Below are positions 4,800-32,181 of a stretch of DNA of 33,948 bases, one piece after another. A model generated the notes under the pieces. That model saw nothing but the letters and a program-made list of their open reading frames with translations. It had not been told where the DNA came from and did not search any database. The stretch is from contig VGYC01000066.1 in the NCBI GenBank assembly GCA_016873095.1, positions 1 through 33,948 on the forward strand, written 5' to 3'. This DNA is from Planctomycetota bacterium (lineage in GTDB: Bacteria > Planctomycetota > Planctomycetia > Gemmatales > Gemmataceae). The position numbers and the translations under genes are program-made. Positions within the stretch are counted from its first letter, which is position 1. Each line of letters opens with the position of its first letter.

Positions 4800-4805
4800 A
4801 TCATA
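4800..4805 (-). promoter_or_regulatory. -10 box of the glycosyltransferase gene
   Basis: Read on the minus strand, TATGAT (five of six consensus bases) ends 6 bases before the ATG at 4793, putting the predicted transcript start on the start codon itself. The -35 is poor (TTGAGC at a 19-base spacing). No ribosome site is present. Confidence 0.4.
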
Positions 4806-9700: not shown

Positions 9701-12076
9701 GTCGAAATCCTTCACCTCCTTGCAGGTGGCCCAGACCGTTGTTTCGGTGGGACCATAGAGGTTGAAGAAGCGCCGACCCTTTGACCAGGCCGCCGCCAGC
9801 TCCGCTGGACATGCTTCGCCGGCGACCTGAACATTGCGAACGGACGGCAACGCGTCGGGGGGCAGCGCCGCCAGCGCCGATGGCGGCAGGACGGCGGCAG
9901 TTATCTGCTTGTCGGCAAACAGCTTCACCAGTCCGGGACCGGGCAGCGTGGACGCCTGTGTCCCCATCACCAGGCTGGCGCCCGCCGTCAAGGCCTGCGT
10001 GGTCTCGAACACCGAGGCATCGAAGCTGAACGATGCAAATTGCAGCAACCGATCTGCGGCAGCAAGGCCAAGCTCACGCAAGGACCGCGACATGGCGCAC
10101 AGTCCACGATGCCGCAGCAGCGTCCCCTTGGGTTGCCCGGTTGAGCCTGAGGTGTAAATGATGTACGCGATGTCGTCCGCCGACCGGCTCAGATCGAGAT
10201 TCTCAGCCGCAAGTTTGCTAATCGCATCCCAGTCGCTGGGCAACATGACGGTCGGCAAGGACAGTTCCGGGACCTGCTGTGGCGCGATCAGCACGGCCGG
10301 CTGCGCATCGTGCACCATGCCCGCCAGGCGCTTTGGCGGATACGCCGGATCGAGAAACATGTAGGCGGCGCCGGCCTTCCAGGCGGCCACGATGGCGACG
10401 ATGATGTCCGGTCCGCGCGGCAAGCTGATGGCGACTCTGTCGCCGCGCTTCGTGCCCAGCCCCTGCAGATGCCGGGCCAGTTGATTGGCGCGGCGGTTCA
10501 GCTCGCCATAGGTGATCGTCCGATCCTCGAACAGGATGGCCGGCGCTGCCGGCGATTCGCTGACGCGCTTCTCGAAAAGATCGTGCCAGCAGCCGTCCGG
10601 ATACTCTGTCCGGGTCTGATTCCAGTCCACCAGCATTTGCTGGCGCTCGGCGGCGTTCAGGATCGGAATCTGGCTTAATGGCAGGTCAGGCCGAGCCAGG
10701 ACCTCGTCGAGCAGGGTGTCAAAGTGGCCCGCCATGCGCTGAATCGTCTCGGCGTCGAACAGGTCGGAGTTGTAGCGGTAGCTGGCAGTGAGCGTGTCGC
10801 CGATCTCGAAGACGATGAAGGTAAGATCGAACGGCGCGCCGCGCTGCTCCATGAGCAGCGGCTCCATCTTCAGCGCCTTGCCGTTCAGCTCGGCGCCATT
10901 GCCGGACGAGGCGTCCAGCTCGCGCGGCTTGTCCCAGATGAACACCGTCTGGAAGATCGGCGACCGGCTCGGATCGCGCTGCGGCTGCAACTTCTTGACA
11001 AGCAAGCCGAACGGGAAGTCCTGGTGATCCAGCGCCTGATGCACCTGATCGCGCGTTCGCTCCAGCAGTTGCTCGAAAGACAGATCACTGGAGAAATCGG
11101 CCCGGAGCACAACCTGATTGAGGAAATAGCCGACGAGCCGCTCCCACTCGGGCCTGCCACGGTCAGCGACCGCAGTACCGACCAGCAAGTCGTCTTGCCC
11201 GGTAAGCCGGTGCAGCATGAGCTGATAGACCGAGAGCATCGCAATGAAAGGCGTAACGTGTCGCTCTTTCACCAGGGCTCGCAGTTTCCTGGCAGCGTCA
11301 GGCTTGATCGGCCGGGAGTAGGCGGTGCCGTTGTAAGTCTGCACGGGCGGGCGCGGGCGGTCCGTCGGCAGGCTCAGCACCGGCAATTCGCCGCCGAGCA
11401 CCTGCTGCCAGTAGGCCAGCGCTTTCTGGCCGCGCTGTCCATGCACTGACACCGTCTGCCATCGTACGAAGTCGGCGAACTGCCCGGTGACGGCCGGCAA
11501 GGCGGCTTTTCTACCGGCACGCTCCGCGTGATAGAGCTCTTTCAGCTCCTGCACGAGCAGGTCCGCGGACCAGAGGTCGGCGATGATATGATGAAACACC
11601 AGCAGCAGGACATAGTCGCTGGCCGATTTCTTGAAGAGCTCGATGCGCAAGGCCGGCCCGCGTTCCAGGTCGAACGGCTCGTCGGCCCGCTTGCGGGCGA
11701 AATCCAGCAGCCGCTCGTCAGACCAGCCGGCCGTGTCGGTGATCGGGATGGGGATTTCGAGGCGCTCCTCGATCACCTGCGCTGGCTTGTTGTCCGGCGC
11801 GATGAAGCGGGTCCGCAGCGCGTCGTGGCGTTGCGTCAGGGCCTGACAGGCACGAACGAATGCGTTGTAGTCGAGAGCGCCCGGGATGCGCACCGCATAG
11901 AGAAAATTGTAGGCGGGACTCTTGGGCGCGAGCTGGTGTACAAACCAGAGCGATTGCTGCCCGTAGGAGAGCGGGATGGGGCCGCGAGCGTTGCCGTCAC
12001 GCAGGCTCAGGAGATTTTTCAATAGCTCCCGCTTATCCTCGACGGAGAGCGTCTCCAGCCGTTGCGCTTCTGTCAT
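6734..12076 (-). CDS. NRPS C-A-T module fused to a KASIII domain and a degenerate KASIII-like domain
   Basis: This large protein (1780 residues) starts at the ATG at 12076, which has AGGAGC 4 bases upstream; an in-frame TTG 12 bases earlier is part of that ribosome site. Domains in order: condensation (about 30-480, with HHIIADLWS at 162-170); adenylation (about 490-985, with TSGSTGQPKG at 642-651, NLYGPTETT at 772, YRTGDLVRW at 861, IRGYRVELEE at 887, and the catalytic Lys970 in GYGKVDRK); carrier (LGGAS, phosphopantetheine Ser1027); KASIII/FabH-like condensing domain (about 1104-1450) with Cys1225 in NACAGT, His1366 in IMHQTSE and Asn1403 in ERGNTATNT; then a second KASIII-like half (about 1470-1780) in which the Cys position is Ala1579 and the His position is Pro. 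There is no thioesterase, reductase or epimerase. Reading the adenylation pocket against PheA gives D-A-F-V-Q-A-L-V-W-K, which I cannot assign to a substrate. Expected chemistry: activate one amino acid, join it to an incoming acyl group, then extend or release it at the KASIII domain. Confidence 0.92.
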   Translation of the reverse strand: MTEAQRLETLSVEDKRELLKNLLSLRDGNARGPIPLSYGQQSLWFVHQLAPKSPAYNFLYAVRIPGALDYNAFVRACQALTQRHDALRTRFIAPDNKPAQVIEERLEIPIPITDTAGWSDERLLDFARKRADEPFDLERGPALRIELFKKSASDYVLLLVFHHIIADLWSADLLVQELKELYHAERAGRKAALPAVTGQFADFVRWQTVSVHGQRGQKALAYWQQVLGGELPVLSLPTDRPRPPVQTYNGTAYSRPIKPDAARKLRALVKERHVTPFIAMLSVYQLMLHRLTGQDDLLVGTAVADRGRPEWERLVGYFLNQVVLRADFSSDLSFEQLLERTRDQVHQALDHQDFPFGLLVKKLQPQRDPSRSPIFQTVFIWDKPRELDASSGNGAELNGKALKMEPLLMEQRGAPFDLTFIVFEIGDTLTASYRYNSDLFDAETIQRMAGHFDTLLDEVLARPDLPLSQIPILNAAERQQMLVDWNQTRTEYPDGCWHDLFEKRVSESPAAPAILFEDRTITYGELNRRANQLARHLQGLGTKRGDRVAISLPRGPDIIVAIVAAWKAGAAYMFLDPAYPPKRLAGMVHDAQPAVLIAPQQVPELSLPTVMLPSDWDAISKLAAENLDLSRSADDIAYIIYTSGSTGQPKGTLLRHRGLCAMSRSLRELGLAAADRLLQFASFSFDASVFETTQALTAGASLVMGTQASTLPGPGLVKLFADKQITAAVLPPSALAALPPDALPSVRNVQVAGEACPAELAAAWSKGRRFFNLYGPTETTVWATCKEVKDFDGKPPTIGKPIPNVRVYVVDRRLQPVPIGVAGELCVAGPTIAAGYLNQPELTAERFVPNPFDASDDAVMYRTGDLVRWNPCGELEFLGRTDHQIKIRGYRVELEEIQEVLRRHPAVTDAVVLARQDNGQPALAAYVVPRSVADFPIGEVRAFLRERLPHYMLPAAIMPLESFPLTGYGKVDRKRLPEPSADANAAQREIVAPRNSTETLLWEVWKQVLGTDKFGVHDNFFDLGGASIQTLEVVSLANARGMALEPEMIFRYQTVADLAAACGSVNGALSNGVHAPAAPTAQAKPVILAEAAVSPQRERSKDIAVAGAVVESIGVYLPEQVLTTTDVIEGCRKKLDFPLERLTGIRSRRVVAEDEFSINLAENAATECLRRTRHRPEDIDLLICCNISRFDGPNFRFGMEPTTASRLRNKFGLVNALAFDITNACAGTFTALTLADGLLRNKVIRRAMVVSGEYITHLTRVAQLEIENFMDSRLPCLTLGDSGVALILEQAPTTDVGFQEIELYTLGKYHDLCVAKMTREAHGGAMMYTDPVKATAVAIRQEVSHAVEVLRRMHWEPENIDALIMHQTSETTLDGAVREINRALGKQVVSRGNTVFNVAERGNTATNTHFLAVYERIQAGDIEPGDRVLFAVSGSGQTVGTALYKFDDLPVRLREPIEQPLPEKTDKPGELRVLNLPRPVQVESIGTISGPLKQDGTPAAAGEAADTIAMLRQAGEACLQVSSRARAEIDLVLHAGVYRTDYLSEPALAAIAAGELRINHDDETPDGRRTLALDLMNGAAGALTAALIASELISHGKNGRALLLASEVETNAQTWPEHLLGLEETASALVLESSATGQGFISFGALAFPDLVQARECYTGANNDLPVVFQKQIPDWHQRVAGCVRDVVAEFLDREKRKLSDFRWIVPPQAGRDFRKAIADALESPAERCLDLGRDKDLFTSSLAHCLAHLRDNAGLRKGEKALFIEVAAGVQVICAVYQA

Positions 12077-12268
12077 GATGCTCCTCAAGGCACTCTGGTC
12101 GCAGCGCTCCTCAGCGCGGCTCCCTGGCGCGATTCCTTGATGCCCTTGATGCGAACGCGGGCGCGCTCTGGCTCGGGCTCAGTCCCTTGAGGTGCGTCCA
12201 GAACCGGCTATTTCGGGCGACAACGGGCGGGCCGCTGACAGGCCCTAGATCGCCGTGCGAGACTACCA

Positions 12269-18935: not shown

Positions 18936-19520
18936 ATGAACCGCGACGCCGCCTGGCAACTGCTGTTGGAATACACGAAGAGCGCTAGCCTCATCAAGCA
19001 CATGCTGGCCGTCGAGGCGGCGATGCGCGCCTACGCCCGCAAACTCGGGCAGGATGACGAGCGCTGGGGCATCGTCGGCTTGCTGCACGATTTCGATTAC
19101 GAGCGCTGGCCCGATCCGCCGGACCATCCGCTCCAGGGGAGCGCGATCCTCAAGGAACGTGGCTATCCCGACGACGTGATCTACGCGATCTGCTCTCACG
19201 CGGACTACCTGGCCGATCGATTCCCGCGCGTGAACCCGACGGACAAGGCCCTGTACGCTTGCGACGAGATTACGGGGCTGGTCACGGCCACGGCGCTATT
19301 GCGGCCCAGCGGCATCACCGACCTGACGGCTGCCAGCGTGAAGAAGAAGATGAAGTCGAAGGGCTTCGCCCGCGGCGTCAATCGCGACGATCTTGTCCGC
19401 GGCGCGGCCGACTTCGGCGTCGATCTCACCGAGCATATCCAGTTCGTCATCGACGCCATGAAGGGCATTGCCAGTGAACTGGAGTTACTGCAAGGGGAGG
19501 CACGAGAGAGCACTTCATGA
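18936..19520 (+). CDS. HD-domain predicted phosphohydrolase
   Basis: This 194-residue cytoplasmic protein carries the HD metal-site pattern: His22 (IKHMLAVE), the His51-Asp52 doublet in GLLHDFDYERWP, His64 (DHPLQGS) and His88 in CSHADY. The spacing fits the single-domain HD hydrolases related to YedJ-like or HDIG-type proteins, which hydrolyse phosphoesters such as nucleotides. The substrate cannot be inferred here. No Shine-Dalgarno precedes the ATG, but a promoter whose -10 ends 8 bases upstream suggests a leaderless transcript. The C-terminal 70 residues (KKKMKSKGFARGVNRDDLVRGAADFGVDL) form a helical tail, a layout seen in similar family members that act on small molecules. The MOSC gene starts 58 bases downstream in the same direction. 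Confidence 0.85.
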   Translation: MNRDAAWQLLLEYTKSASLIKHMLAVEAAMRAYARKLGQDDERWGIVGLLHDFDYERWPDPPDHPLQGSAILKERGYPDDVIYAICSHADYLADRFPRVNPTDKALYACDEITGLVTATALLRPSGITDLTAASVKKKMKSKGFARGVNRDDLVRGAADFGVDLTEHIQFVIDAMKGIASELELLQGEARESTS

Positions 19521-19578
19521 ACGTAGACATCGGTCAACGAACGCACCGTCCGCCGCTTCCCAAACAATCGAGGCACCA

Positions 19579-20385
19579 ATGATAGGCTCCATCGTCTCCA
19601 TCTGGCGTTACCCGGTCAAGTCGATGCAGGGCGAGGAACTGAATGCTGCTGCCATGACGGACCGAGGCTTGCTTGGCGATCGTGCCTTTGCCCTGGTGGA
19701 TGCTGCGGACGGGAAGGTCGCCAGTGCCAAGAACCCGCGGAAATGGCCGAACCTGTTCGAGTTTCGCGCCCGCTATCGCGACCTGCCGCACGCTGGCAAG
19801 CCGTTGCCGGCTGTGCGCTTTACGTTGCCGGATGGCGTCGAGGTTGACAGCGACGCCCCGGACATCAACCAGATTCTCTCCCGGACAGTGGGCCGGCCGG
19901 CGACTCTCGAGTCCAGGCCGCCGCCGGCGCCTGCGCTGGAGGAATACTGGCCGGATCTCGACGGCCTGCCGCACCGCGACGCCGTCACCGATGAAAAGAT
20001 GCCGGGAGGAGCGTTTTTCGATCTCGCGGCCGTGCACGTGCTGACGACGGCAACCCTGGAGCGCCTGCGCGAACTCGAACCGGCCGCACGCTTCGAGGTG
20101 CGCCGCTTTCGGCCCAATATCGTCATCGCGCCGGCGACAGGCGGCTGCGACTTTCTGGAAAACGCCTGGCTGGGTAGAACGATAGGGCTCGGCGAGGCCG
20201 CGCGTCTGGAGATCACCGGGGCGTGTCCACGCTGCGTGATGACGACGCTGGCCCAGTACGACCTGCCGCGTGACCCAGCCGTCCTGCGCAGCGCCGTCCA
20301 GCACAACCAGGGCAACGTCGGCATCTATGCTCGCGTCACCGCCTCGGGCATCATTCGCCGCGGCGATCCGGTGAGGCTGGAATGA
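19579..20385 (+). CDS. MOSC-domain protein with N-terminal beta-barrel
   Basis: This 268-residue protein belongs to the MOSC family (molybdenum cofactor sulfurase C-terminal-like). Its N-terminal beta-barrel domain (residues 1 to about 110) opens IGSIVSIWRYPVKSMQGEEL, the standard YPVKS.G motif, with DRGLLGDRAFALVD. The catalytic MOSC domain carries FDLAAVHVLTTATLERL, RFRPNIVI, the key-cysteine segment ITGACPRCVMTTL, and a final NQGNVGIYARVTASGIIRRGD. Relatives bind molybdenum cofactor or pyranopterin and act as sulfur carriers or N-hydroxy-compound reductase components. The start is the ATG at 19579 with GAGG 6 bases upstream; the frame extends further upstream but only over the end of the HD gene. 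The 3' end faces the next minus-strand gene with a 17-base gap. Confidence 0.92.
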   Translation: MIGSIVSIWRYPVKSMQGEELNAAAMTDRGLLGDRAFALVDAADGKVASAKNPRKWPNLFEFRARYRDLPHAGKPLPAVRFTLPDGVEVDSDAPDINQILSRTVGRPATLESRPPPAPALEEYWPDLDGLPHRDAVTDEKMPGGAFFDLAAVHVLTTATLERLRELEPAARFEVRRFRPNIVIAPATGGCDFLENAWLGRTIGLGEAARLEITGACPRCVMTTLAQYDLPRDPAVLRSAVQHNQGNVGIYARVTASGIIRRGDPVRLE

Positions 20386-20402
20386 CTTCGAGAGGCAGTC
20401 GA

Positions 20403-20924
20403 TCAGCGCCGCCGAGCGCCGGTGACGGCACCGACTCCGGAACCGACGCTGCGACTCGAACCGACTCCTCCGACTCCTCCGATGCCGCCTCCGAAGCTGC
20501 CTCCGCTGGAGATGCCCCCCTGTTGACCAGAGCCAGTCTGGCCGCCGCGGGACATTGTGCGCCCGCCGCTCGAACCTCCGAGGGTCATGAAATAACGTGA
20601 CTGCGTCATGTAGCCCGAGCGAATTCCTGTGGCTGGCATGGCGATTTCCTTGCCGGCCATGGATGCGTCCTGCAGATTGCTGACGCCCTGCTGCAGCTGA
20701 CCGATGGCAGCCTGCGCCGGGAATTGCGGCTCCACGAGCCCGTAGTAGTTGAGAAACAGCGGCACATCGTTGCGGAACAGGTTCAGGTAGGGGCTGAACA
20801 TCGGCCGCGGCACGTACGTCTGCCGGTACAGCGGAAAGCCTGCCCGATACTGGGCGTGGCTGACGCCGGCCATGGCCAGACTCATGACCACAGACAGGAC
20901 CCAGAGACCGGTTGCTCGTTTCAT
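20403..20924 (-). CDS. Small secreted glycine/serine-rich-tail protein (paralogue A)
   Basis: The product is 173 residues with a signal peptide (MKRATGLWVLSVVMSLAMAGVSHA, cleaved before QYRAGF). The conserved core (PRPMFSPYLNLFRND.PLFLNYYGLVEPQF, then AQAAIGQLQQGVSNLQDASMAGKEI and AMPATGIRSGYMTQSRYFMTLGG) is almost identical to the gene at 30117-30632, while the Gly/Ser/Arg-rich tail differs. The function of this family is unknown to me. It is the last gene of the minus-strand exosortase operon, separated from the TPR gene by 141 bases that contain a perfect 10-bp hairpin. A GAGGT site lies 8 bases before the ATG at 20924. Low-complexity tails of this kind suggest a matrix- or surface-associated protein (inference). 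Confidence 0.85.
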   Translation of the reverse strand: MKRATGLWVLSVVMSLAMAGVSHAQYRAGFPLYRQTYVPRPMFSPYLNLFRNDVPLFLNYYGLVEPQFPAQAAIGQLQQGVSNLQDASMAGKEIAMPATGIRSGYMTQSRYFMTLGGSSGGRTMSRGGQTGSGQQGGISSGGSFGGGIGGVGGVGSSRSVGSGVGAVTGARRR

Positions 20925-20980
20925 GGCCAGCACCTCGCTACCAATCGTGAATGGTTGTTTGGTATGTCCAGTGCGGAGAA

Positions 20981-21013
20981 GGCGAGGCTCCTGCCGAGTC
21001 GCAGAGCCTCGCC
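20981..21013 (-). terminator. Perfect 10-bp GC-rich hairpin between TPR and paralogue-A genes
   Basis: GGCGAGGCTC (20981-20990) and GAGCCTCGCC (21004-21013) are exact reverse complements around a 13-base loop. The position, after the TPR stop at 21066 and before the ATG at 20924, suits an intercistronic terminator or RNA-stability element. Its palindromic form also fits a dispersed repeat. Confidence 0.5.
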
Positions 21014-21065
21014 ACCTCGCCCTCCCCAAACTGGCCCGATTACTTGAGTTCATTGGAACGGCCAT

Positions 21066-24000
21066 TCAGATACTCAGTTCCTTGGCAAGCTTCCTCAGCG
21101 TTGGGCGTTCGAGGACATGTACGCGCTCGATCGCGCGATTCAGATCGGGGATGCTCAAAAGGGCCTGACGGGCCGCGGCCCGGTTGCCGAGTTGCAGATG
21201 AACCTGGGCCAGGTGCAGAAACTTCGTAGCATTCGGCTTGTCTGCGATGGCCGCCTGCAGATCGGCCAGCGCCAGCGCGAGCTGATCACTTTTGAGGTAG
21301 ACCAGCGCCCGGGTGTCGAGCAGTTCCGCCGCGGGTCCGACCTGACGGATAACGCCCTGGATGAGTTCCAGCGGTTCGCTGCCGGCGCCCCCCTTCAGGG
21401 CCAGGAGGTAGGCCAGGTTGTTGCCGGCCATGACGCTGTCCTTGCTGAGTGCCAGTGCCTTGCGATAGCCGGCAATCGCCTGGTCGATTCGACCCTGATA
21501 GTCGCGCAGGCTGGCCAGGATAAGGGGAAGCGCCGGCAGACTGGGATGTTTGGCCTCGGCGCGGGCGATCGCCATTTCAGCTCGCGGTTGATGATCCTCG
21601 CTTGCCTGGCCAGACTGGATGATGACCAGGCAGGTCTCGGCCACGGCCTCGGGCTTGCAGGTCGCCCACGCCTTGTCGCAAACGTCCAGTGCTTCGGCGA
21701 CGCGTCTGTGACGACCCAGAAATCGGGCCAGGGGCAGGACGCTTTCAGATACCTTGGAACTCGTCGCCAGGGTGCGGAAGACCTTTTCCGCCTCCGCCGG
21801 CTGACCCAGTTCTTCAAGCAAGAGGCCGGCGGGAGCCAGCGTCGCGCCTTTTTCCTGAACGTAGCTGGTGAGCAATTCCGTGGCGGCATCGACTCTCTGC
21901 CTCGCTTTGAGGAGGCGTGCCTGCAACTCCACGGCTTCGAACACCCTGGGCCCGGGCCTGACCTGCTTCACGAGCTTGTCCAGCCACGACTGGGCCTGAT
22001 CCAGTTTCCCCTGGCGCAGCAGGCCGCGCACGTAATAGGCGACGTAGGCAGGTTTTTCCTGCTGGCGCAGGATCGCCAGCATCTGACCCTGGACCTGGTC
22101 CCAGCTGCCATACGTCTCGTACAGTTGCGCGAGCAGGAAGCGGGCATCGAGTCCAAGGGCGGCGTCGCGCGGCGACAGGGTCTCGAAAAGCTGGATGGCT
22201 TGCCGGCCATGGCCCGGCTGGCTCGCCAGCACCAACGCCTTGGCCTGCAGGTCTTCTGACGCCGCGCCATTCCTGAGGTTTTCTTCCACCAGCGCCATGG
22301 CCTTCTTGAATTTTTGATAATTGCCTCTGTAGGCGAGGCTCAGGGCCAGGCTGCGGCGTGCCCAGCGAACGAGGGCATCCGGCATCTTGGAATCGATAAT
22401 GTTCTGCAACACCGCGCCGGCCCGGTCTTGCTTGCCGTGCCGCAGGTAGAAGCTTGCCACGTTGCGCAGCACGAGCGGATCACCTGGCTGGGCGGCCAGC
22501 GCTTGCTCATAGAGCTTTTCGGCCTGCTCCACACGGTCGAGCGCTTCGTGGCAAGGTGCCAGTGCCATGGGCTTCTGCCGCTCCGGCAATTTCCGCTCGG
22601 CCCGCGCCAGCTCATTATCGGCCTTCTTGACATCGTGCCTGGCCAGGAACAGAATGAGTGTCACCCAGGTGTCAGCAATATCGCCTCTGAGTTCCACCGC
22701 CTTGCGCAGGGCCCGCTCGGCTTCGTCTGGTTGCGCCGCGGCCCAGGCCATCTGGCCCAGCCACAGGTACTCGCGATGGTCCGTTGATTCCTTGGCGACA
22801 CTCTTGCGGGCGATCTGCAAGGCGCGCTGGCGGCCCAGCATGCCGTCCTGGCCCGTTTCCCTGTCAAAGAGGAACGATTCCGCTGCCAGCCGGCCCCGCT
22901 CCGGACTGGTCAGCGCTGCCTCGGGCAGGTCCTTGATCAGGGCATGCGCTTCCGAGTAGCGCTGGTGCTCGAAGAGAAGCTGCAGCATTCTCCGGTAAAC
23001 CGACAGCTGCTTCACTCCCATGGCGAGGGCAGCCTGGTACTTTTCCAGGGCCTTGTCCGTGCGCTTCTCCTGCTCGTACACCTCGGCCTCGAAGAGGGGC
23101 ACGCGCGACCACGACGGCCGCAGAGCGGCCGCCGTCGCCAGGCGCTGGTGGGCCTCGGCGCAGGCCTTCGTGTCGCCGTCGCGGGCGCGTGCCAGGCACA
23201 GCACCGCCTCGCCATACGCCGTCCAGGCGCCGCTTCCTTCCAGCTCCTCGATTTCCCTGAGGACTCGCTCCGCTCGCTTCCGGTCTTTTTTCTTGTAGGC
23301 AAGCTCGCATAGCAGGCAGCGGACGTTGAAATGGCTGGGCTGGCGCGCGGCCACGGATTCTGCCAGCCGGGCCGCGGTATCATAGTCGCGCAACAAGTAA
23401 TGCGCCTCAGCCAAGGCGATGCGCAAGAGATCGCCCTCGCTCTCCGAATAGGCGGACAGTCGGGATTCCATGCGGATCAGGTGCGGCTGAGCGTCCTGCT
23501 TCTCCTTCCCCGCCCAGTCGCGCGTCCGGGCCAGATCCCATTCGATGCGCCGGCCGGCCAGCTTTTCGGCCAAGTCCAGAAGTGCCGGAATGCCGGCTGC
23601 CTTGCCGTCGCTCTCGGCAATTCCGGCCAGGAAGAGCCAGGGCCCGACCTTCTTCGGCTCCCGATCGCGCTCGGCTTCCGCGACCTGTCGAGCCTCGGCC
23701 GATCTCTGCCGCGCCAGCAACAGATTGGCCCGCAATAGCCGCACCTCAGTCAAGTCCTGCGTTTCCTTCGGCAGGTCGGCAAGGACCTGTTCCATCTCCG
23801 TCCAGTTCCGCTCTCCCACCGGCAGCCGCAGGGTGCGTGCGAACAGGACGCGCGCAAACTCAAGCCTTAGCTCGGGAGCCTGGGTCAACAGCTTGCGGTA
23901 TTCCGCGATCGCCTTGTCCCACTTGCCCAGCGCGGCCAGGCTGGCGGCCATGCCCCGCCGCGCCGGCAGCATGTGGGCATCATCGGCGAGGGCACTGTGG

Positions 24001-25238
24001 TACGCCAGCAGCCGTTGATCCGAGTTTCCCATATGCTCGTGGCACTCCGCCAGCGCCAGCCAGACAGGCTTGACGAGCCAGGTCGGGGTCAGGCGGTTGC
24101 CGCGGACTTGCTCCAGCATCTGCCGGGCCTTGCCCCAGGCGTTCTTCCGCATCAGCTGCTGGGCTTCGAGGTACACAACCTCCGGCAACTTCCCTGGCTT
24201 GCCTAGCTGGGCTATGGCCGTGCTGGCCTGTTCGTCAGCGCCGGCATCGATCAGGAGTTTGGCCAGTTCCCACAGGAGGGCGCGCTCCTCGGGCCACGGA
24301 TTCAGGAAGGGCTGCAAGATTTGCCGGGCCTTCTTGCTCCGGCCATTCCGCAACTCCAGCCGGGCTGTTGCCAGGGACATGCGCAGATCCCCGGGAAACT
24401 GCTGCTGACCTCGCTCCAGGTACGCGCGTGCCTGCGCCGTGTTGCCGAGGACGCGGGCCAGGTCGGACGCCAGCAAGAACAACTCCGGATCCTGGACCGT
24501 TGCGGTGCGCAGCGCTTCTTGCACATGGCGGTCGGCCTGCTTCCACAGGCCGAAGTGCTGATAATAGCGGACAGCGGCCAGCTGCGCCGGCAGGGCGCCC
24601 TGGTTCGCCGCCACCATCACCTCGACAACCTCGTCCGCATCTTCCGCCTTGTTGAGCTTGTCGCGCAACAGAAACGCGTACTGCACGCTCAGCGTGTGAT
24701 CCCTCTTGGCATGCTGAAAGGCCCTATCGAAGGTGTCGGCAGCCTTCTGGTAGTCCTTGGCGCCGACCTCGCACTGGGCCTTGAGTCGCAGCAACTCGAC
24801 GTCATTGGGCGCCACGGTCAGTAACTCCGCCAGCCGGACGCGCGCCTCGGCAAATCGACCCAGCTGCAAGGCCAGCCGGGCCACTTCGCGACGGATGTCC
24901 TGCCGATCGGGGCTGCGACGCAAGGCGTGCTCGAGGATTCGAAACGCATCGGCCCTGGCCCGGAAGCTGTTGTGGGCCAGCTTGTTCAGCAACAGTCCAT
25001 ACTTCGCCAGCACATCCGCATCGGCTGGATCGAAGCCCAGGTACTGTCGCAAGTAATCGGCCGCCTGTCTGTCGTTTCCCTGCGATTCTTCATGCGCGGC
25101 CTGTTCGAGCAGTCCGCCGGCGTTGCGCTTGACCTGAAAGGCATGCAAGAAATGGATGCCCCCGCCCAGAAGCAGCAGCGCGAGGGACAGAATCAGCAAC
25201 GCCTTGCCGTTCAATCGCTTCTTGTGGCGTGCTTTCAT
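21066..25238 (-). CDS. 1390-residue TPR-repeat membrane-anchored protein
   Basis: An N-terminal signal-anchor (about residues 11-30, LLILSLALLLLGGGIHFLHAF) follows a basic head, so the long body is probably extracytoplasmic. The rest is a near-continuous array of tetratricopeptide-like helical pairs, for example LEQAAHEESQGNDRQAADYL, DADVLAKYGLLLNKLA and AYLERGQQQFPGDLRMSLA. Such repeats form a superhelix for protein-protein contacts. Very long TPR proteins recur beside exosortases, where they are thought to help polysaccharide export or sorting of PEP-CTERM proteins. Here the gene begins 4 bases after the EpsI-like gene's stop, consistent with one operon. Family length varies widely. The repeat count cannot be fixed by eye, but the array covers most of the protein. 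Confidence 0.88.
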   Translation of the reverse strand: MKARHKKRLNGKALLILSLALLLLGGGIHFLHAFQVKRNAGGLLEQAAHEESQGNDRQAADYLRQYLGFDPADADVLAKYGLLLNKLAHNSFRARADAFRILEHALRRSPDRQDIRREVARLALQLGRFAEARVRLAELLTVAPNDVELLRLKAQCEVGAKDYQKAADTFDRAFQHAKRDHTLSVQYAFLLRDKLNKAEDADEVVEVMVAANQGALPAQLAAVRYYQHFGLWKQADRHVQEALRTATVQDPELFLLASDLARVLGNTAQARAYLERGQQQFPGDLRMSLATARLELRNGRSKKARQILQPFLNPWPEERALLWELAKLLIDAGADEQASTAIAQLGKPGKLPEVVYLEAQQLMRKNAWGKARQMLEQVRGNRLTPTWLVKPVWLALAECHEHMGNSDQRLLAYHSALADDAHMLPARRGMAASLAALGKWDKAIAEYRKLLTQAPELRLEFARVLFARTLRLPVGERNWTEMEQVLADLPKETQDLTEVRLLRANLLLARQRSAEARQVAEAERDREPKKVGPWLFLAGIAESDGKAAGIPALLDLAEKLAGRRIEWDLARTRDWAGKEKQDAQPHLIRMESRLSAYSESEGDLLRIALAEAHYLLRDYDTAARLAESVAARQPSHFNVRCLLCELAYKKKDRKRAERVLREIEELEGSGAWTAYGEAVLCLARARDGDTKACAEAHQRLATAAALRPSWSRVPLFEAEVYEQEKRTDKALEKYQAALAMGVKQLSVYRRMLQLLFEHQRYSEAHALIKDLPEAALTSPERGRLAAESFLFDRETGQDGMLGRQRALQIARKSVAKESTDHREYLWLGQMAWAAAQPDEAERALRKAVELRGDIADTWVTLILFLARHDVKKADNELARAERKLPERQKPMALAPCHEALDRVEQAEKLYEQALAAQPGDPLVLRNVASFYLRHGKQDRAGAVLQNIIDSKMPDALVRWARRSLALSLAYRGNYQKFKKAMALVEENLRNGAASEDLQAKALVLASQPGHGRQAIQLFETLSPRDAALGLDARFLLAQLYETYGSWDQVQGQMLAILRQQEKPAYVAYYVRGLLRQGKLDQAQSWLDKLVKQVRPGPRVFEAVELQARLLKARQRVDAATELLTSYVQEKGATLAPAGLLLEELGQPAEAEKVFRTLATSSKVSESVLPLARFLGRHRRVAEALDVCDKAWATCKPEAVAETCLVIIQSGQASEDHQPRAEMAIARAEAKHPSLPALPLILASLRDYQGRIDQAIAGYRKALALSKDSVMAGNNLAYLLALKGGAGSEPLELIQGVIRQVGPAAELLDTRALVYLKSDQLALALADLQAAIADKPNATKFLHLAQVHLQLGNRAAARQALLSIPDLNRAIERVHVLERPTLRKLAKELSI

Positions 25239-25242
25239 GGAA

Positions 25243-25947
25243 TCACTGCCGAAGGAGAGTCGTGAGGGCGGTCGCCCGTGCGGAGGGCAAGCTTGCCTGT
25301 TCGCTGTGACCGAGATGTCGTTGCGCTTCTGGTAGGAATTGACGCAGGAAGGTCATGGCCGGATCCGTTTCCAGGGGCTCCTCGACATTTTCCATGCGAT
25401 GGATGACATAGAGCTTGTAGAGGGCAGGATAGCGGGCCAGGCTGAAGCGGGCGTTGTCAGGAGCCATCCAGCGGCCATCGCCGTTCCAGGACCAGAAAAT
25501 CCGTAGCGCTTCTGGAACCGCGGCCCGCGGCTTGTGAAACTTGCCAACCTTGAAATCGACCGGTCCGGGCAGCGAGGCCACTTCCAGCTTGTGGGACAGC
25601 GCCGGTCCATCCTGGCTGAAGCCCGCTCCCGGATAGCAGACCTCCGGCGTATGCAATGACGTGGGTCCGGCACGGCCGCACACCAGCAACAGCGACAGCT
25701 GCTGGCCCGTCACACGATGGACATAGCGTCTCACCAGGTAGCCGTCGATCTCGCCCTTGGCGACTTGCCGGGCATCGAGTTCGCGTTCCTCGCCGCGCCA
25801 GTCGCCGACATGCAGCGGGACGCTCTTGAGTCGCTCCGCCGCCAGGCGGACGGCCGCGGATGCCTGCCAGCGATGCGTCCAGCGCCCTTCGACGACGCCG
25901 TAGCCGGCTACCAGCCCGATCGCCAGCAATAGTGGAAGCAAGCGCAT
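25243..25947 (-). CDS. Exosortase-associated EpsI-like protein
   Basis: The 234-residue protein has an N-terminal membrane helix (residues about 3-19) and an exported domain. The diagnostic motif is SLHTPEVCYPGAGF, with His99-x-Pro and Cys104-Tyr105, the same H-x-P-x-x-C-Y pattern seen in EpsI/DUF3485 proteins fused to, or encoded beside, exosortases. WGG-like elements around residues 48-52 (GDWRG) and FWSWNGDGRW (about 151-160) also fit the family. Its role is not settled; association with exosortase and polysaccharide export is established by gene neighbourhood. It starts 3 bases after the exosortase stop (TGA-TCC-ATG), which indicates translational coupling, and the TPR gene follows 4 bases later. 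Confidence 0.9.
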   Translation of the reverse strand: MRLLPLLLAIGLVAGYGVVEGRWTHRWQASAAVRLAAERLKSVPLHVGDWRGEERELDARQVAKGEIDGYLVRRYVHRVTGQQLSLLLVCGRAGPTSLHTPEVCYPGAGFSQDGPALSHKLEVASLPGPVDFKVGKFHKPRAAVPEALRIFWSWNGDGRWMAPDNARFSLARYPALYKLYVIHRMENVEEPLETDPAMTFLRQFLPEAQRHLGHSEQASLPSARATALTTLLRQ

Positions 25948-25950
25948 GGA

Positions 25951-26958
25951 TCAACCCGTTGCCTTTCCGCCGGTCATGGTCGCGCTGCTTGCCCGGGCCA
26001 TCATGGTCTCTTTCGCCGCCATCCTCGGCAAGGCGGTCCTCGTCAACGTGCCAGGGATCCTCACGATTTCCGGATCCCGGACAGGAAGATCCACCACCAG
26101 CCAGGCGAACAGCCGCATTTCCGCCCACAGCATTGCCAGGGCCAGCGGCATCATCAGCCAGCCGAACAGGTCGTGAAAGACGTAATCCGCCCACGCGCTG
26201 CTGACCGTCTTGTGCAGCACTGCCGTGACCACGATGCGAATGATGTTCGCCGCCAGGGCGATCGGTATGGAACTGGCGAAGATCAACGCCTTCTCGCCCC
26301 ATGGTCTGTCCACGACCAGACACACCGCGGTCGACAGGGCGAAGAAGATCATCAGCATGCTCAGCCCGCTGCAAGCCTCGACCACGCCGATGCGGACCGG
26401 CCCCATGCAAATGACGTTGCCTTCGGAGAAAGCCGCCACGCCCAGCGTTTGCAGGATGTACGTGCTTGCCAGCGTGGCCACGCGCTGCAGTGGATAGGCC
26501 AGCCCCGTCTCGATGCGGTGCGGCAACGGCAGCATGAAGATCAGGAAGGCAATTGCCGGCCAGGACCAGTGCAACGCCCGCCAGCCCCCCGCGAGCAGGC
26601 ACGCCCCCGCCAGGCATGGCAGCAACGCGAGGCCCTGAAGCCAGTCAAGATAGATGTAAGTTCCGAAAAACCGCAGTGCCAGCCCGCCAGCAAGGATCAG
26701 CAGGCCCCAGCCAGTCGGCTGCAAGGCGGCCAGCAGGTCGCGTCGCCGCCACAGCAGGTACAGCGAAAATAACGGCACCGCGTAGCCATGCGAGTATTGC
26801 GAATCGGTCCGCCATCTCCCGGCCACGTCCAACAGCGTCGGCCAGTAGACCCACAACAGACCGACGCCAAGAACAAACGTTGCCAGCTTCCGCGGACAGC
26901 GGCCAAATGAGGCAGCGGCCAGCCAGAGCCGATCGGTCTTCAGAGTGGCGACGCTCAT
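25951..26958 (-). CDS. Exosortase
   Basis: This 335-residue multi-pass membrane protein of the exosortase/archaeosortase family has about eight hydrophobic segments. The three conserved active-site residues are all present: Cys196 in GVVEACSGLSML, Arg241 in ALAANIIRIVVTA and His262 in YVFHDLFGWLM. Exosortases are transpeptidase-like enzymes that recognise PEP-CTERM tails and anchor or release the substrate during export. A likely substrate is encoded at 27674-28465 in the same direction. The EpsI-like protein follows directly. A low-complexity C-terminal tail (about 295-335) is not part of the catalytic core. I recall a planctomycete exosortase subclass with an EpsI partner, but I cannot assign this protein to a subclass with confidence. 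Confidence 0.93.
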   Translation of the reverse strand: MSVATLKTDRLWLAAASFGRCPRKLATFVLGVGLLWVYWPTLLDVAGRWRTDSQYSHGYAVPLFSLYLLWRRRDLLAALQPTGWGLLILAGGLALRFFGTYIYLDWLQGLALLPCLAGACLLAGGWRALHWSWPAIAFLIFMLPLPHRIETGLAYPLQRVATLASTYILQTLGVAAFSEGNVICMGPVRIGVVEACSGLSMLMIFFALSTAVCLVVDRPWGEKALIFASSIPIALAANIIRIVVTAVLHKTVSSAWADYVFHDLFGWLMMPLALAMLWAEMRLFAWLVVDLPVRDPEIVRIPGTLTRTALPRMAAKETMMARASSATMTGGKATG

Positions 26959-27206
26959 GACGGCACGGCAAGACTGCGGGGCGGATGTTCGGGCAACACG
27001 GCAAATCTCCGTAGATCAAATTTCATGCCGCCGGCGAGCGCAAAACGCGAGTCGTTTGATTTGTAGGGCAAATCGAGACTTGCAACGATGCCGCAATCAT
27101 CGGCGCTGGTTGACATGTGTCACGGTTGGTTGACAGTTTGCCGTGGTTGGGAAGATTGTAGGCAGTGGATCCATCTTCTGGATCCGCTATCGAGTGAAAA
27201 GATAAG
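26959..27206. promoter_or_regulatory. Region before the exosortase operon: TTGACA repeats and hairpin
   Basis: Between the exosortase start and the lipoprotein-like gene's stop lie two copies of GGTTGACA 20 bases apart (27108-27115 and 27128-27135), an interrupted palindrome TGACATGTGTCA (27111-27122) and a hairpin (see 27164-27188). I see no clear -10 box for the exosortase operon, which may therefore be transcribed from the PEP-CTERM gene upstream. No gene is present. Confidence 0.4.
27164..27188 (-). terminator. Hairpin after the lipoprotein-like gene
   Basis: GGATCCA (27167-27173) and TGGATCC (27179-27185) are exact complements around a 5-base loop, and three flanking pairs (one wobble) extend the stem to 10. 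It begins 18 bases after the minus-strand stop at 27207. There is no T-tract. It could end, or only attenuate, the PEP-CTERM operon transcript. Confidence 0.45.
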
Positions 27207-27677
27207 TCACGGGCGGGGCCGTGGCTCCAGGAAAATGTCGCAATCTAGCTCGATCGTATCCTGGTGGCTAATCGTAACATGCCCCTTGACGGAGGCGCCA
27301 TGCTCTGGAGATCGCGGCAAGTGTAGTGCCAACTGCAGCAGGTTGTCCCGGTCGAAGCGGATGAGGACGGTATCGCTCTCTAGCTGCACTGTTGCGCCCT
27401 TGGCCAGGACGCCGCGCGATATGCCCTTGTCGCGCAGCAGAGCGCACTCCGCCGGTTTTTCCGGCAGCGACAGATCGTAGTGCAGATAGGGATAGGGCAA
27501 CGGCTGGCCGTCGCCCGCTGTCATGCCCCAGTAGCCACGATAGCACTCAGGAATCAGATCCAACTCGGTCCTTTTTTTCACTTCGACGGGCACGGGAGCT
27601 TGCCGCGGCTGGTTTGTCGGTGCGCAAGCCACCGCAATCATGCCGGCGATGATTGGCGAAGACAGGCGTACGTTCAC
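27207..27677 (-). CDS. Small lipoprotein-like protein coupled to the PEP-CTERM gene
   Basis: This 156-residue protein starts at a GTG at 27677 that overlaps the stop of the PEP-CTERM gene (GTGA), so it is probably translated by coupling. The N-terminus (RLSSPIIAGMIAVACAPTNQ) is hydrophobic and ends in a lipobox-like AVAC with Cys18, suggesting a lipid-anchored secreted protein; the lipobox is imperfect. The mature part begins with a Pro-rich spacer. It continues with KRTELDLIPECYRGYWGMTAGDG, then strands such as ATVQLESDTVLIRFDRDNLLQLALHL and a final HVTISHQDTIELDCDIFLEPRP, which looks like a single beta-rich domain. I recognise no family. Its place beside a PEP-CTERM protein suggests it belongs to the same cell-surface system. 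Reading further upstream in frame only covers the neighbouring gene. Confidence 0.72.
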   Translation of the reverse strand: MNVRLSSPIIAGMIAVACAPTNQPRQAPVPVEVKKRTELDLIPECYRGYWGMTAGDGQPLPYPYLHYDLSLPEKPAECALLRDKGISRGVLAKGATVQLESDTVLIRFDRDNLLQLALHLPRSPEHGASVKGHVTISHQDTIELDCDIFLEPRPRP

Positions 27678-28465
27678 GCGGCCATCCTCATACGCCTTCG
27701 TCTGATCCACAGCAATCCACTGCCGGCGGCCAGCAGTGCGATGGTTGACGGCTCCGGACATGGCGTCAGATCGCTGTCCTTCTCGGCCGTCCAGTCGCCG
27801 AAGCCGCTATTCGCCAGCGCAGTCGCGATGGTGGTCATGTCGCCAGCAGTGGGCAGACCATCGCCATTCTTCTTCTTGAGCGATGTGATATCCCCCTTAT
27901 CGCCGGTGGCCCATTCGTAGCCGGCGATGACGCTGAACTTCTTGTCGCCGAGTTCGACGATCAGCCACGTGTCAAACTTCGCTCCCACGACCGTGGGCGC
28001 ATCACTGATGTGGTATTTCTTTGTCTGACCTGCCGTCGTGTTCTCGGTTTTTTCCTCTTCCGCGTTCCAGTACCATGGGAGGAAGTCATCGGTGGCCTTG
28101 CCGCCCTTTGTGGATTTATAACCTCCATAAACTGGATCGACGATTGGCGGCTTCAAAGCGTCGCCATCGAATTTCGGATTGGTGTCACTTGCAGTCAACG
28201 CGGTGACGACCTGGAACCAGTGAAACTTGAAACAATCCAGCAACGGCAGCACCGCTGCGTTCGTCGTGAAGAGCCCCTCCATCACGACATTGTCTTCGGT
28301 GCCCTTGGTGGTTGTGGCTGTGATCTTGCCAATGTCGGTCGACACGCCGCCGATTTTCAGCTTCACGGGATCGATTGTTATCGAGTCCGCGTGAACGCTG
28401 CCGACGACGGCCAGAATGACTGCGAGGGCCATGGTTGCGACAACGGCCAGCCTTTTCCGGTGCAT
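27674..28465 (-). CDS. PEP-CTERM sorting-domain protein
   Basis: This 263-residue protein has a signal peptide (MHRKRLAVVATMALAVILAVVGSVHA) and, at the other end, a classic PEP-CTERM tail: a CPEPST motif (from about residue 236), a hydrophobic helix (IALLAAGSGLLWI) and an arginine cluster (RRRRMRM). The central domain is acidic and lysine-rich with no catalytic motif and several beta-like segments (KFDTWLIVELGDKKFSVIAGYEWATG). Proteins with this tail are the substrates of exosortases, and one is encoded downstream in the same direction. The ATG at 28465 has AGAAGG a few bases upstream and fits the signal peptide; open frame upstream of it lacks such a site. A 7-bp hairpin lies in its leader (28509-28525). 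Confidence 0.93.
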   Translation of the reverse strand: MHRKRLAVVATMALAVILAVVGSVHADSITIDPVKLKIGGVSTDIGKITATTTKGTEDNVVMEGLFTTNAAVLPLLDCFKFHWFQVVTALTASDTNPKFDGDALKPPIVDPVYGGYKSTKGGKATDDFLPWYWNAEEEKTENTTAGQTKKYHISDAPTVVGAKFDTWLIVELGDKKFSVIAGYEWATGDKGDITSLKKKNGDGLPTAGDMTTIATALANSGFGDWTAEKDSDLTPCPEPSTIALLAAGSGLLWIRRRRMRMAA

Positions 28466-28926
28466 GATCCTTCTCCAAGATTGAGAGTCGCGCGTGCATA
28501 AGCGCAACGGCTCCCACGGGGAGCCCAACGCGTCTCCGGTCCGATATGTCGCAGCGAAACGGTAAGTAGACTGGCATTTCCCGTGCCGGACATGGACCGA
28601 ATTCGATCCTCGGCTGCTGCCCGCGAAAAACCAGGAAGACATGAAAACGTCTCGCCCAAGCAACTCCGTCGTAGCGGCGAAGTGTAAAGAAAACATGTCA
28701 AGGACGCTTGACACATCAGCTCAGGGTGAACGGTCGCCAACATCAGGGGTCGATGGCTGCTTCTTGCAAATCCGCGGCCATTCGCAAGCTGCGGAACCTG
28801 GTCAAAGCAAGCAAGGTTGTCCTGACTTGCCTAGGATAATGATTGAACAAATCGTTCGCGAAGTTCCGATAACGACAGCAGAGTGTGAAAACCCTTGGGT
28901 TTCTGGGTCAAAAAGGGTAAATCGCC
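28466..28926. promoter_or_regulatory. Divergent intergenic region of the PEP-CTERM and export genes
   Basis: This 461-base region separates two divergent starts. It holds a perfect hairpin GGCTCCC/GGGAGCC with a 3-base loop (28509-28525), a sigma54-like sequence TGGCATTTCCCGTGC with correct GG-N10-GC spacing but a mismatched -12 (28572-28586, plus strand), and an exact inverted repeat TGTCAAGGACGCTTGACA (about 28695-28712) that looks like a dimer-binding operator. No gene is visible. The function of each site is inferred from form only. Confidence 0.4.
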
Positions 28927-30036
28927 ATGCCATTCGCTCGTGCCTGCCGCCGCTTGCTTCTCAGGCTGGTGGTGCTTGCTTCCGTGGGCCTGACGGGGTG
29001 CCAGTTGATGAGCAAGCAAGTCGATCCGACCCTGCCCAATGAAAAGGCCAAGATCGCCCTGCCGCCCTATGTCATCGAGCCGCCCGACGTGCTGCAGATC
29101 AACGCCGTCCAGCTCGTTCCCAAGCCGCCGTACAAGATCAAGCCATTCGACGTGATCCTGGTGCAGTTTCCCTCGACCGGCGACATCTTGAAAAAGGAAG
29201 ACCTGGAAGACCTGGACAAGGCTGGCCGCCGCATTGGCGCCAACTTCGTCGTCGAGCCGGAGGGATACGTGAACCTCGGGCCGGTTTATGGCAACGTGCC
29301 GGTTGCCGAGATGACCATCGACAAGGCCCGCGAGGCCGTCACCGAGCGCATCAAGATGTACACCAAGAAGGACCTTGTCGAGGCCGGCAAGGTCCGCGTG
29401 GAACTGGTGCAGAGCCGGGCCATGCAGCAGGTCCTGGGTGATCACCTGGTCCGGCTGGACGGCACGGTGGGCCTGGGTACCTAGGGCGGCGTCTTCGTGT
29501 CTGGGCTGACGCTGGACGAGGCCAAGAGGGCCATCGAAGGCCACCTGTCTCAGTTTGTCGTGAACCCGGAGATCTCGCTGGACGTGAGCGGCTTCAACAG
29601 CAAGGTCTACTACGTCATCTTCAGCGGCGGCGCTTATGGCGATCAGGTGATCCGCATACCGGCGACGGGCAACGAAACCGTGCTGGATGCCATCGGTCAG
29701 GTCTACGGCCTGTCCCAGGTCGCCTCGCGCTGCCATATCTGGATTGCCCGTCCCAGTCTCGGTCTCGAAGAGGGCGAGGATGCCATCTTGCCCGTGGACT
29801 GGAACGCGATCACGCGTCGCGGCTCGTCGGCCGCCAACTACGAGATTGTGCCAGGGGATCGTCTGTTCGTTGAAGCCCGGCCGATCATCTGCATTGACGA
29901 GAACATCGCCCTGTATTTGGCGCCCTTGCAGCGCCTGATGGGTGCGACGATTCTAGCCGTCGGAACCGGCAACGTCGTCAAATTCGCTGGCAGAGGAGGC
30001 GCAGGCGGACTGGGCGGGTTCGGTGGTGGCATTTGA
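28927..30036 (+). pseudogene. Wza-like polysaccharide export lipoprotein interrupted by an in-frame TAG
   Basis: The reading frame encodes a polysaccharide biosynthesis/export protein (Wza/SLBB family, outer-membrane polysaccharide channel) across its whole length, but codon 186 is TAG (29482-29484). Before the stop are a lipobox (LTGC, Cys25), an export-domain opening (YVIEPPDVLQINAV) and the passage FVVEPEGYVNLGPVYGNVPVAEMTIDKA. After it, in the same frame, come GGVFVSGLTLDEAKRAIEGHLS (an SLBB-type turn), a second SLBB-like block (YYVIFSGGAYGDQVIRIPATGNETVLDAI) and a Gly-rich C-terminus. The sense codon was most likely Tyr (LGTYGGV), one base from TAG. No frameshift or other damage is seen, so a fresh nonsense change, a sequencing error or readthrough are all possible. 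The downstream half begins with GTG/TTG codons but no ribosome site, so separate expression is doubtful. Confidence 0.9.
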
Positions 30037-30116
30037 GAGAAAGTCGTGTAGAATAACTCCACAGCAGGCCGACAACGGGTTCTGTACCGCTCAAAGCAAT
30101 TCCCGAGGTGCTGACC

Positions 30117-30632
30117 ATGAAACAAGCAACCTGTCTCTGGGGCTTGTCCCTGGTGCTGTTGGCGACAAGTGCCGCGCCAGGCCATGCTCAGTATCCCGGC
30201 GGGTTCGGCATGTACCGGCAATCGTACATGCCCCGTCCAATGTTCAGTCCGTACCTGAACCTGTTTCGCAACGACGCGCCGCTGTTTCTCAACTACTATG
30301 GTCTTGTGGAGCCGCAATTCCAGGCGCAAGCCGCCATCGGTCAGTTGCAGCAGGGCGTCAGCAATCTCCAGGATGCATCCATGGCCGGCAAGGAAATCGC
30401 CATGCCTGCCACCGGCATTCGCTCCGGCTACATGACGCAGTCAAGGTATTTCATGACGCTTGGTGGTCCGAGCGGCGGCAACACCTTTTCGCGCGGAGTG
30501 CAAAACCGACTCAGCAGGCAAGGCGGCACCGCCGGCGGGGGCGGTTACGGCAGCGGCGCCGGCACGGGCATCGGCTCCAACATCGGGATGGGAAGCGGTA
30601 GCGCTGCCGGAGCAACTACGCCGAGACGGTAA
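30117..30632 (+). CDS. Small secreted glycine/serine-rich-tail protein (paralogue B)
   Basis: The product has 171 residues with a signal peptide (MKQATCLWGLSLVLLATSAAPGHA) and the same core as the gene at 20403-20924: MPRPMFSPYLNLFRNDAPLF, the LNYYGLVEPQFQAQAAIGQL segment, and a long block ending IRSGYMTQSRYFMTLGG. Only the Gly/Ser-rich tail is clearly different. The ATG at 30117 is preceded by a GAGGTG site spaced as in the paralogue. It follows the interrupted export gene by 80 bases in the same direction and is probably on its transcript. The near-identity of the cores indicates a recent duplication or strong constraint. Confidence 0.87.
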   Translation: MKQATCLWGLSLVLLATSAAPGHAQYPGGFGMYRQSYMPRPMFSPYLNLFRNDAPLFLNYYGLVEPQFQAQAAIGQLQQGVSNLQDASMAGKEIAMPATGIRSGYMTQSRYFMTLGGPSGGNTFSRGVQNRLSRQGGTAGGGGYGSGAGTGIGSNIGMGSGSAAGATTPRR

Positions 30633-30752: not shown

Positions 30753-32102
30753 TTAGCCAAGCAATTCGGAGATTGGGTTGCCGCCGGGCAGGATGGGCAG
30801 CGGGCGGCCCGCGTGGTTGCGAAACTCGTGGCGTCGGTCGATGCCCAGGAAGTGATACAGAGTCGCCAGGAGATCGGTCGGGTGAAGCTGTCGCTCGCGG
30901 GGCCGCTCAGCCCGGCTATCGGTCGCGCCGATGACCTGGCCGACGCGCATGCCGCCGCCGAACACCAGCACCGACATCGCGTATGGCCAGTGGTCGCGCC
31001 CCGGCCGGCCGTCGCGGGTGTCCAGCCGCGGCGTTCGACCAAACTCACCCATGACGATCACCAGGACGCGTTCGCCGAGGCCACGATCGTAGATGTCTTC
31101 CACCAGGGCAGTCAGCGCCTGGTCGTAAACCGGCAAGCGCCGCCGCATGGCGTCGAAGATATCACGGGCAGTCGAGTGATCGTCCCAGCCGCCATCCACC
31201 CCCTCGTAGCTGGCGATCTCCGCCGTGACGAAGCTCACACCGGCTTCCACGAGCTGGCGCGCGAGTAGTAGTTTCTGGCCGGCGTTGCTGCGGCCGTAAC
31301 GGTCGCGCAAGCGTGTATCCACGGCGCTGAGGTCGAAGGCGCGCCTGGCGGCCTCGCCCGTGAGCAGTGCCACCGCTTCGCGCTCGTAGCGATCCATCGC
31401 CGCCATTGTGCCGCGCGCGTCCAGATCCCTGCGCATGCCATCGAAGCCGTGCAACAGCGCGCGGCGGTCGTCCAGCCGCGCGACCACGTCGGCGGCCACT
31501 GCGATGTTGGGGACGCGAAAGGTAGGGCTGCTGGGGTCGCCAGCCGCTACGAACGGCTCATACCCGCGACCCAGGTAAGCAGGCCCAACGAAGCCTATCG
31601 GGTGCGAGATTGCGACATAGGAAAGCTGCCCTTCGAGTGACGAGGGGCGCATCCGCTTGATCACCGAGCCCACCTCGGGATGAACCGAGGTGGTGGTGCC
31701 GCCCCCCGTCAACACGGCCGGCCAGCCGGTCAGCACGTGCTGTGCACCGTCCTGATGGCCGGTGAACTCGTGTGTCAACGATCGGATCAACGTCAGTCGG
31801 TCGGCAATGCGCGCGTGGCGTGGCAGCAACTCGCAGACGTCCAGGCCAGGGACGCAGGTGCGAATCGGCCGGAAGGCGCCACGATACTCCGCAGGCGCCT
31901 CGGGCTTCATGTCATAGGTTTCGAGGTGACTTGGTCCACCGCCCAGCCAGACGAGGATGCAGGCAGTATCCTGCACGGGACGACCCTGCGCCACGGCGCC
32001 AGCGCGAAGCCGCAGCAAGTCGCTCAGTCCTAGCCCCGCCAGGCCGAGCAAGCCTGCTCGGAGGAAATCTCGTCTTTGCGGGACTCCGAGGCGAGTGTGC
32101 AT
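30753..32102 (-). CDS. DUF1501 family secreted protein with Tat-type signal
   Basis: The 449-residue product has a twin-arginine start (QRRDFLRAGLLGLAGLGLSDLLRL), consistent with Tat export. The body matches the DUF1501 family, a sulfatase/alkaline-phosphatase-like fold common in planctomycetes: CILVWLGGGPSHLETYDMKP, the HEFTGHQDGAQHVLTGWP segment, GQKLLLARQLVEAGVSFVT, GGWDDHSTARD, and a C-terminal VIVMGEFGRTPRLD with GRDHWPY. Those Asp, His, Gly and Arg positions form the expected metal-ligand pattern. In planctomycetes such genes often sit beside a DUF1553/DUF1549 cytochrome-type gene; none is present here. The ATG at 32102 has GGAGAG about 10 bases upstream; the frame upstream of it is extra. 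Confidence 0.92.
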   Translation of the reverse strand: MHTRLGVPQRRDFLRAGLLGLAGLGLSDLLRLRAGAVAQGRPVQDTACILVWLGGGPSHLETYDMKPEAPAEYRGAFRPIRTCVPGLDVCELLPRHARIADRLTLIRSLTHEFTGHQDGAQHVLTGWPAVLTGGGTTTSVHPEVGSVIKRMRPSSLEGQLSYVAISHPIGFVGPAYLGRGYEPFVAAGDPSSPTFRVPNIAVAADVVARLDDRRALLHGFDGMRRDLDARGTMAAMDRYEREAVALLTGEAARRAFDLSAVDTRLRDRYGRSNAGQKLLLARQLVEAGVSFVTAEIASYEGVDGGWDDHSTARDIFDAMRRRLPVYDQALTALVEDIYDRGLGERVLVIVMGEFGRTPRLDTRDGRPGRDHWPYAMSVLVFGGGMRVGQVIGATDSRAERPRERQLHPTDLLATLYHFLGIDRRHEFRNHAGRPLPILPGGNPISELLG

Positions 32103-32181
32103 GGTGACTACTCTCCGGCTCCTGAGGCCATGAGCGCCGCGGTGACGATGCTTCAACCTGTGCCGCACATTATAGCGTTCC

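Follow-up and report, generated by a model that had tools for sequence, protein, structure and literature searches.

Among the closest described counterparts of the genes considered here are the OPX/beta-barrel pairs of Myxococcus (WzaX/S/B or EpsY/ExoA/WzaB, with a barrel of 18 strands), as set out in the accessible portions of two papers (PMC9603273, PMC9601211). The word stem 'planctomycet' is absent from the main text of both, and polysaccharide export across the planctomycete outer membrane is poorly known. A second point of reference is the PEP-CTERM/exosortase system (Haft 2006, PMC1569441) which, going by the available part of that paper, is matched in the DNA analysed here by an exosortase, an EpsI-like protein, a PrsT-like TPR protein, an OPX protein and a PEP-CTERM protein. 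A third is a region of Stieleria maiorica (PMC7293339) which, in the available part of its description, is likewise a planctomycete locus joining PEP-CTERM and exopolysaccharide genes. The open-licence literature searched contained no paper joining planctomycetes, exosortase and polysaccharide export and no description of the small secreted family treated below. This unnamed, OPX-linked family is a stronger finding than the bracketing of an exosortase locus by two of its members, from which the analysis started.

The exosortase locus and the genes at its two ends

The window, by which the whole analysed stretch of 33,948 nucleotides from a member of the Gemmataceae is meant, contains the following features:

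20403-20924, minus strand: copy A, a small Sec-type secreted protein of 173 residues (ATG at 20924) with core and Gly/Ser tail, solo, without an OPX gene of its own
20925-21065, minus strand: gap of 141 bp between TPR gene and copy A, with a diverged copy of a dispersed palindrome (exact 16-mer at 20981-20996)
21066-25238, minus strand: TPR protein of 1390 residues, PrsT-like (TIGR02917 below cut-off)
25243-25947, minus strand: EpsI-type protein (PF11984, DUF3485)
25951-26958, minus strand: exosortase (PF09721), with no second one found in the source genome
27207-27761, minus strand: small protein without a family match, in which a later in-frame start would, from the sequence, give a lipoprotein-like signal
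27674-28465, minus strand: PEP-CTERM protein and probable substrate of the exosortase, with an ORF open from 28714 and a signal peptide starting at 28465
28927-30036, plus strand: OPX gene (Poly_export), lipobox-like start, with an in-frame TAG at 29482-29484 in this assembly
30104-30116, plus strand: leader of copy B, 13 nt with a ribosome-binding site, matching that of copy A in 12 of 13 bases
30117-30632, plus strand: copy B, a small secreted protein of 171 residues (ATG at 30117) in the canonical OPX-linked position

An earlier note on this DNA had described a duplicated gene at both ends of the locus in opposite orientation, each copy being the last of its own gene run. Both observations hold, since A and B are oppositely oriented, one at each end, and the flanking genes converge on them (19468-20385, plus strand, below A; 30753-32168, minus strand, above B). 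The cores, called almost identical, are so as protein, with 76 of 78 residues shared (residues 39-116), and are not so as DNA, where they differ at 23 of about 54 synonymous sites. Ahead of the core 13 of the first 25 residues and 7 of the 13 at positions 26-38 are identical, and the Gly/Ser tails diverge as the note had observed (26 of 57 alignment columns identical). This likeness is not due to chance, as a search of the whole genome recovered B with 100% and A with 73% identity at an E value of 1e-70. Outside the genes the two copies have no DNA in common except the 13-nt leader.

The OPX gene in front of copy B, whose stop codon lies 80 bp before the ATG of B on the same strand, scores 42 bits with PF02563 before the TAG (cut-off 28) and falls below the cut-off after it; the OPX genes of relatives are uninterrupted at this point. 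A second OPX gene of the source genome, on contig C99, has its frame broken near the C-terminus. The two breaks may be errors of the assembly or genuine decay, and it could be argued from them that the exporter of this genome is decaying. Elsewhere in the window, a 1784-aa ORF on the minus strand (6734-12088) was judged by eye to combine a condensation-adenylation-carrier NRPS module with a ketosynthase III-like part.

A small secreted family and its OPX neighbours

Neither A nor B has a Pfam or NCBIfam match. When 68 aligned members were compared with the two collections only isolated matches of single members appeared, the best with an E value of 0.0095, and a PDB sequence search with the family gave no match. 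A pattern search of named genomes with B alone returned 33 matches, none of which is a relative. A family profile built on 16 rows, with A, B and the copy on C99 among them, finds three copies in the source genome, namely A (E 6e-36), B (1.2e-35) and the C99 copy (4.3e-35), which is a distant member on another contig. The profile is positive in 66 of 95 Gemmataceae genomes, with members known in Gemmata, Fimbriiglobus and other Gemmataceae, and further families within the class Planctomycetia also carry the small secreted protein. A phylum-wide search found it in at least 23 of 392 genomes, all of the same class; this search scored 12 candidates per genome, which makes absence outside the class weak evidence. 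Scanning with a nine-row alignment yielded 53 loci, most of them titled planctomycetes; one bears the title Kuenenia, a genus from a different planctomycete class, and one the title Bacteroidales, though its contig probably comes from the Gemmataceae. So far the family is almost confined to the Planctomycetia. Its plan consists of a signal peptide ending in A-Q, the block SPYLNL...NYYGxVRP, a variable middle, the block TGHxxxFxNxxxYF and usually a Gly-rich tail (32% Gly over 114 tails), and the OPX-partner proteins in the family measure about 120-270 residues. Of the 131 family proteins 112 end in a basic residue (Arg or Lys), compared with 110 of 426 crude gene calls.

Gene context was taken from 80 Gemmataceae stretches together with the window, 27 stretches from other families and the 53 named loci, 22 of them with genes absent from the earlier set. 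The Gemmataceae have 118 profile places, two of which are the window copies, and the 80 examined from the other 116 are mostly the stronger matches. Of the 131 family genes collected in this way, six are cut by contig ends and 125 can be assessed, and 118 of these are preceded by an OPX gene on the same strand. The figure is 77 of 78 in the Gemmataceae (76 by script, plus L104, which has a wrongly called ORF start), 21 of 26 in other families and 20 of 21 for the genes that the named loci add, with a median gap of 76 bp over 97 scripted pairs. In L146, L153 and L236 the OPX gene lies head-to-head beside the family gene, and in L147 and L150, which come from one genome, and in L151, with 1.5 kb visible, no OPX gene is seen. 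Copy B is a normal OPX-partner gene with the exporter gene directly upstream, and copy A, which has a TPR gene in that place, is the sole one of the 78 assessable Gemmataceae copies without an OPX gene of its own. Both belong to the family by the profile match of their cores, A by sequence and not by position. The usual neighbour across the 131 genes supports the note's view of a duplicated component of a surface-polysaccharide system.

The association extends to the sequences themselves. The distance matrices of OPX and family proteins correlate with r = 0.57 over 95 pairs (two of the 97 were left out for length), and shuffling partners within genomes, which preserves the species tree, gave a mean r of 0.44 for 19 genomes with 41 loci; none of 2000 shuffles reached the observed value. 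Paired OPX proteins score at least 194.8 bits with their own profile, whereas unpaired OPX proteins of clearly other types reach at most 168.4. The source genome has four OPX genes (C66, C99, C131, C334), with family members beside those of C66 and C99, and the OPX proteins of C131 and C334 are clearly different types. Twenty extra OPX stretches were also taken; 14 contain an ORF matching the OPX profile and three of these are of the paired type. Two of the three (L172, L181) end at the contig edge just after the OPX gene. In the third (L178) the OPX gene is followed by an ORF (1874-2461) for a secreted protein that is rich in Gly, has NNYGHWY-like motifs and finishes in a basic end; it has no profile match and is perhaps a very divergent family member.

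The link to the exosortase that the note had emphasised is partly right. At the level of genomes the family is present in 65 of the 82 Gemmataceae genomes that have an exosortase and in 1 of the 13 that lack it (P 1e-6, which is optimistic because the genomes are related, with 7 of the 13 exosortase-free ones from a single genus). Proximity does not hold, as an exosortase gene is present in 20 of the 108 stretches of the first set and in 1 of the 53 named loci. OPX, which is adjacent nearly always, is therefore the primary partner. In one stretch from a relative with an exosortase gene beside OPX and family gene (L059), a Wzz/tyrosine-kinase-like gene (2585-4804) lies between exosortase and EpsI; unlike in L059, EpsI directly follows exosortase in the window.

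What the family may do and how copy A may have arisen

From linkage and co-variation we infer that A and B are paralogs of a family serving as a dedicated secreted accessory of a Wza-like OPX exporter, a reading to which a probability of about 0.5 is given. It is favoured by the OPX gene upstream of nearly every member, by the shuffling result, by the distinct profile score of the paired OPX proteins and the resemblance of one of them to Wza (below), and by a strongly constrained core (dN/dS about 0.03) combined with a basic last residue. Copy A and the three distant copies in L147, L150 and L151, none with a visible OPX gene, count against it, as do the two broken OPX frames of this genome. 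The family protein would leave the cytoplasm by Sec export, after which its two motif blocks may bind the OPX ring from the periplasmic or the outer side, and the Gly-rich tail with its basic end may extend towards either the polymer or the cell surface. Copy B would be the normal partner of the exporter. Copy A, a second copy now lacking OPX in the slot which in some relatives holds TPR gene, OPX and family gene, is probably expressed with the exosortase, EpsI and TPR genes and could supply more, or a differently tailed, subunit to the same exporter. No fold backs any mechanism, since AlphaFold2 with 68 sequences models copy B alone with a pLDDT of 62.5 and a pTM of 0.26. The low-confidence model has a signal helix and a main helix (67-89), no strand of three or more residues and no helix in the C-terminal part, and a PDB fold search with it gave a single, meaningless match (E 9.3).

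The first alternative is that the family provides a matrix or coat protein which, once outside the cell, binds to the exported polysaccharide, being co-expressed with the exporter without forming part of it. The signal-peptide-like N terminus, the low-complexity Gly-rich tails with their basic ends, the conserved aromatic motifs without a confident fold and the co-occurrence with exosortase at genome level would all suit such a protein, which is close to what the earlier note had proposed. This proposal is possible and the less favoured one, as it needs neither a position behind the exporter in case after case nor copy-by-copy co-variation with it inside one genome, yet both are seen. A third reading, to which we give a rather low probability, is that the gene is a mere passenger in an OPX cassette, with a periplasmic or regulatory role unconnected with the exporter. 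Inheritance of the two genes as one cassette would yield the same statistics as an accessory role and by itself explains the co-variation, but the pairing recurs with small gaps in Gemmataceae and other Planctomycetia families, and copy A is under purifying selection even though it has no OPX gene of its own.

That selection also accounts for the likeness of the two cores, which the note had attributed to gene conversion between inverted copies, an idea suggested by near-identity of the core next to differing flanks. By Nei-Gojobori counting the core has a dS of 0.63 and a dN of 0.017, the signal peptide the same dS with a dN of 0.39, and the tail a dS near 2 in an alignment that is unreliable there. 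The core does not show significantly less synonymous change than the preceding 38 residues (P 0.64), and the longest run free of such change, 10 codons, is what shuffling would produce (P 0.48). The core is held by strong purifying selection on the protein and the tails are free to vary. Recent conversion is rejected on these values and on the lack of common DNA beyond the leader; an older event is conceivable and not needed, which leaves conversion very improbable as the cause. Least likely of all is that A and B are exosortase substrates anchored by their C-termini, as their place beside the exosortase locus and their basic ends might suggest, since neither has a PEP-CTERM match or a hydrophobic helix ahead of the basic end and the locus has a separate PEP-CTERM protein. 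Taken as a whole, the earlier interpretation is partly supported.

A and B are paralogs, probably duplicated specifically in this lineage, and so similar a pair is exceptional, as core identity between paralogs does not exceed 48% in the 19 genomes with several loci. In six relatives (L063, L068, L090, L092, L101, L152) a TPR gene that is akin to that of the window and 1,442-1,476 codons long is followed after 67-223 bp by OPX and then by the family gene; in the window copy A stands behind the TPR gene with no OPX in between. The gap carries the palindrome, of the GGGAGGGCGAGGCTCCTGCCGAGCC type, whose 16-bp core has 217 matches in the genome with up to one mismatch compared with 7 for a reversed control, and whose copies often lie inverted to each other at a distance of about 53 bp, in the manner of REP doublets. 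A promoter and terminator scan of 20250-21200 found none. Duplication of the whole cassette with loss of one OPX gene at the palindrome is an attractive possibility, and duplication of the family gene alone fits equally well. Solo copy A is a natural case of a partner parted from its exporter gene and still kept.

Comparison with described systems

Compared with the PEP-CTERM/exosortase system, as far as the available part of its description extends (PMC1569441), A and B differ in having no sorting signal and the family in lying away from exosortase in most genomes. The accessible text on the Stieleria maiorica region (PMC7293339) mentions no small secreted protein behind the exporter.

The likeness to the Wza-type OPX translocon lies in the neighbour protein. 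The four paired OPX proteins scanned all match Poly_export, with sub-threshold SLBB in two, and the model of one (L055; pLDDT 88.2) matches Wza (2j58) with a Z-score of 15.0, an rmsd of 2.9 and 165 aligned residues, as against 13.2, 6.5 and 158 for the class 3 protein WzaB. A difference may lie at the C-terminus, where the four scanned proteins have no match to Wza_C or another C-terminal family; the L055 model predicts a helix of about 20 residues (312-331), a second one (334-347) and a short tail. In an alignment the partner OPX proteins, too, carry a short Gly/Asn-rich tail at the C-terminus, frequently with F, R or P as the last residue. The family, which almost always accompanies this one planctomycete OPX class, is a candidate for a missing exporter part and a simple marker for planctomycete OPX export loci. 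A bolder and unlikely version would have the Planctomycetia use a two-piece outer-membrane exit in which many copies of the small secreted protein, folding only on a Wza-like periplasmic ring, complete the pore or its surface cap. If true, such an exit would replace the helical barrel of Wza or a beta-barrel partner, and a differently tailed duplicate would retune it for the exosortase pathway.

An outer-membrane beta-barrel partner of the Wzp type, which is 18-stranded and goes with class 3 OPX proteins, was considered for A and B and rejected on their size of 171-173 residues and the strandless low-confidence model. The Myxococcus pairs, within the accessible parts of their descriptions, differ accordingly in structure, as the planctomycete partner is Gly-rich and predicted to be mostly unfolded with one helix in place of a barrel. 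What the two share is the arrangement, in which an OPX gene is adjoined by a clade-conserved gene of initially unknown function that is taken to be its export partner.
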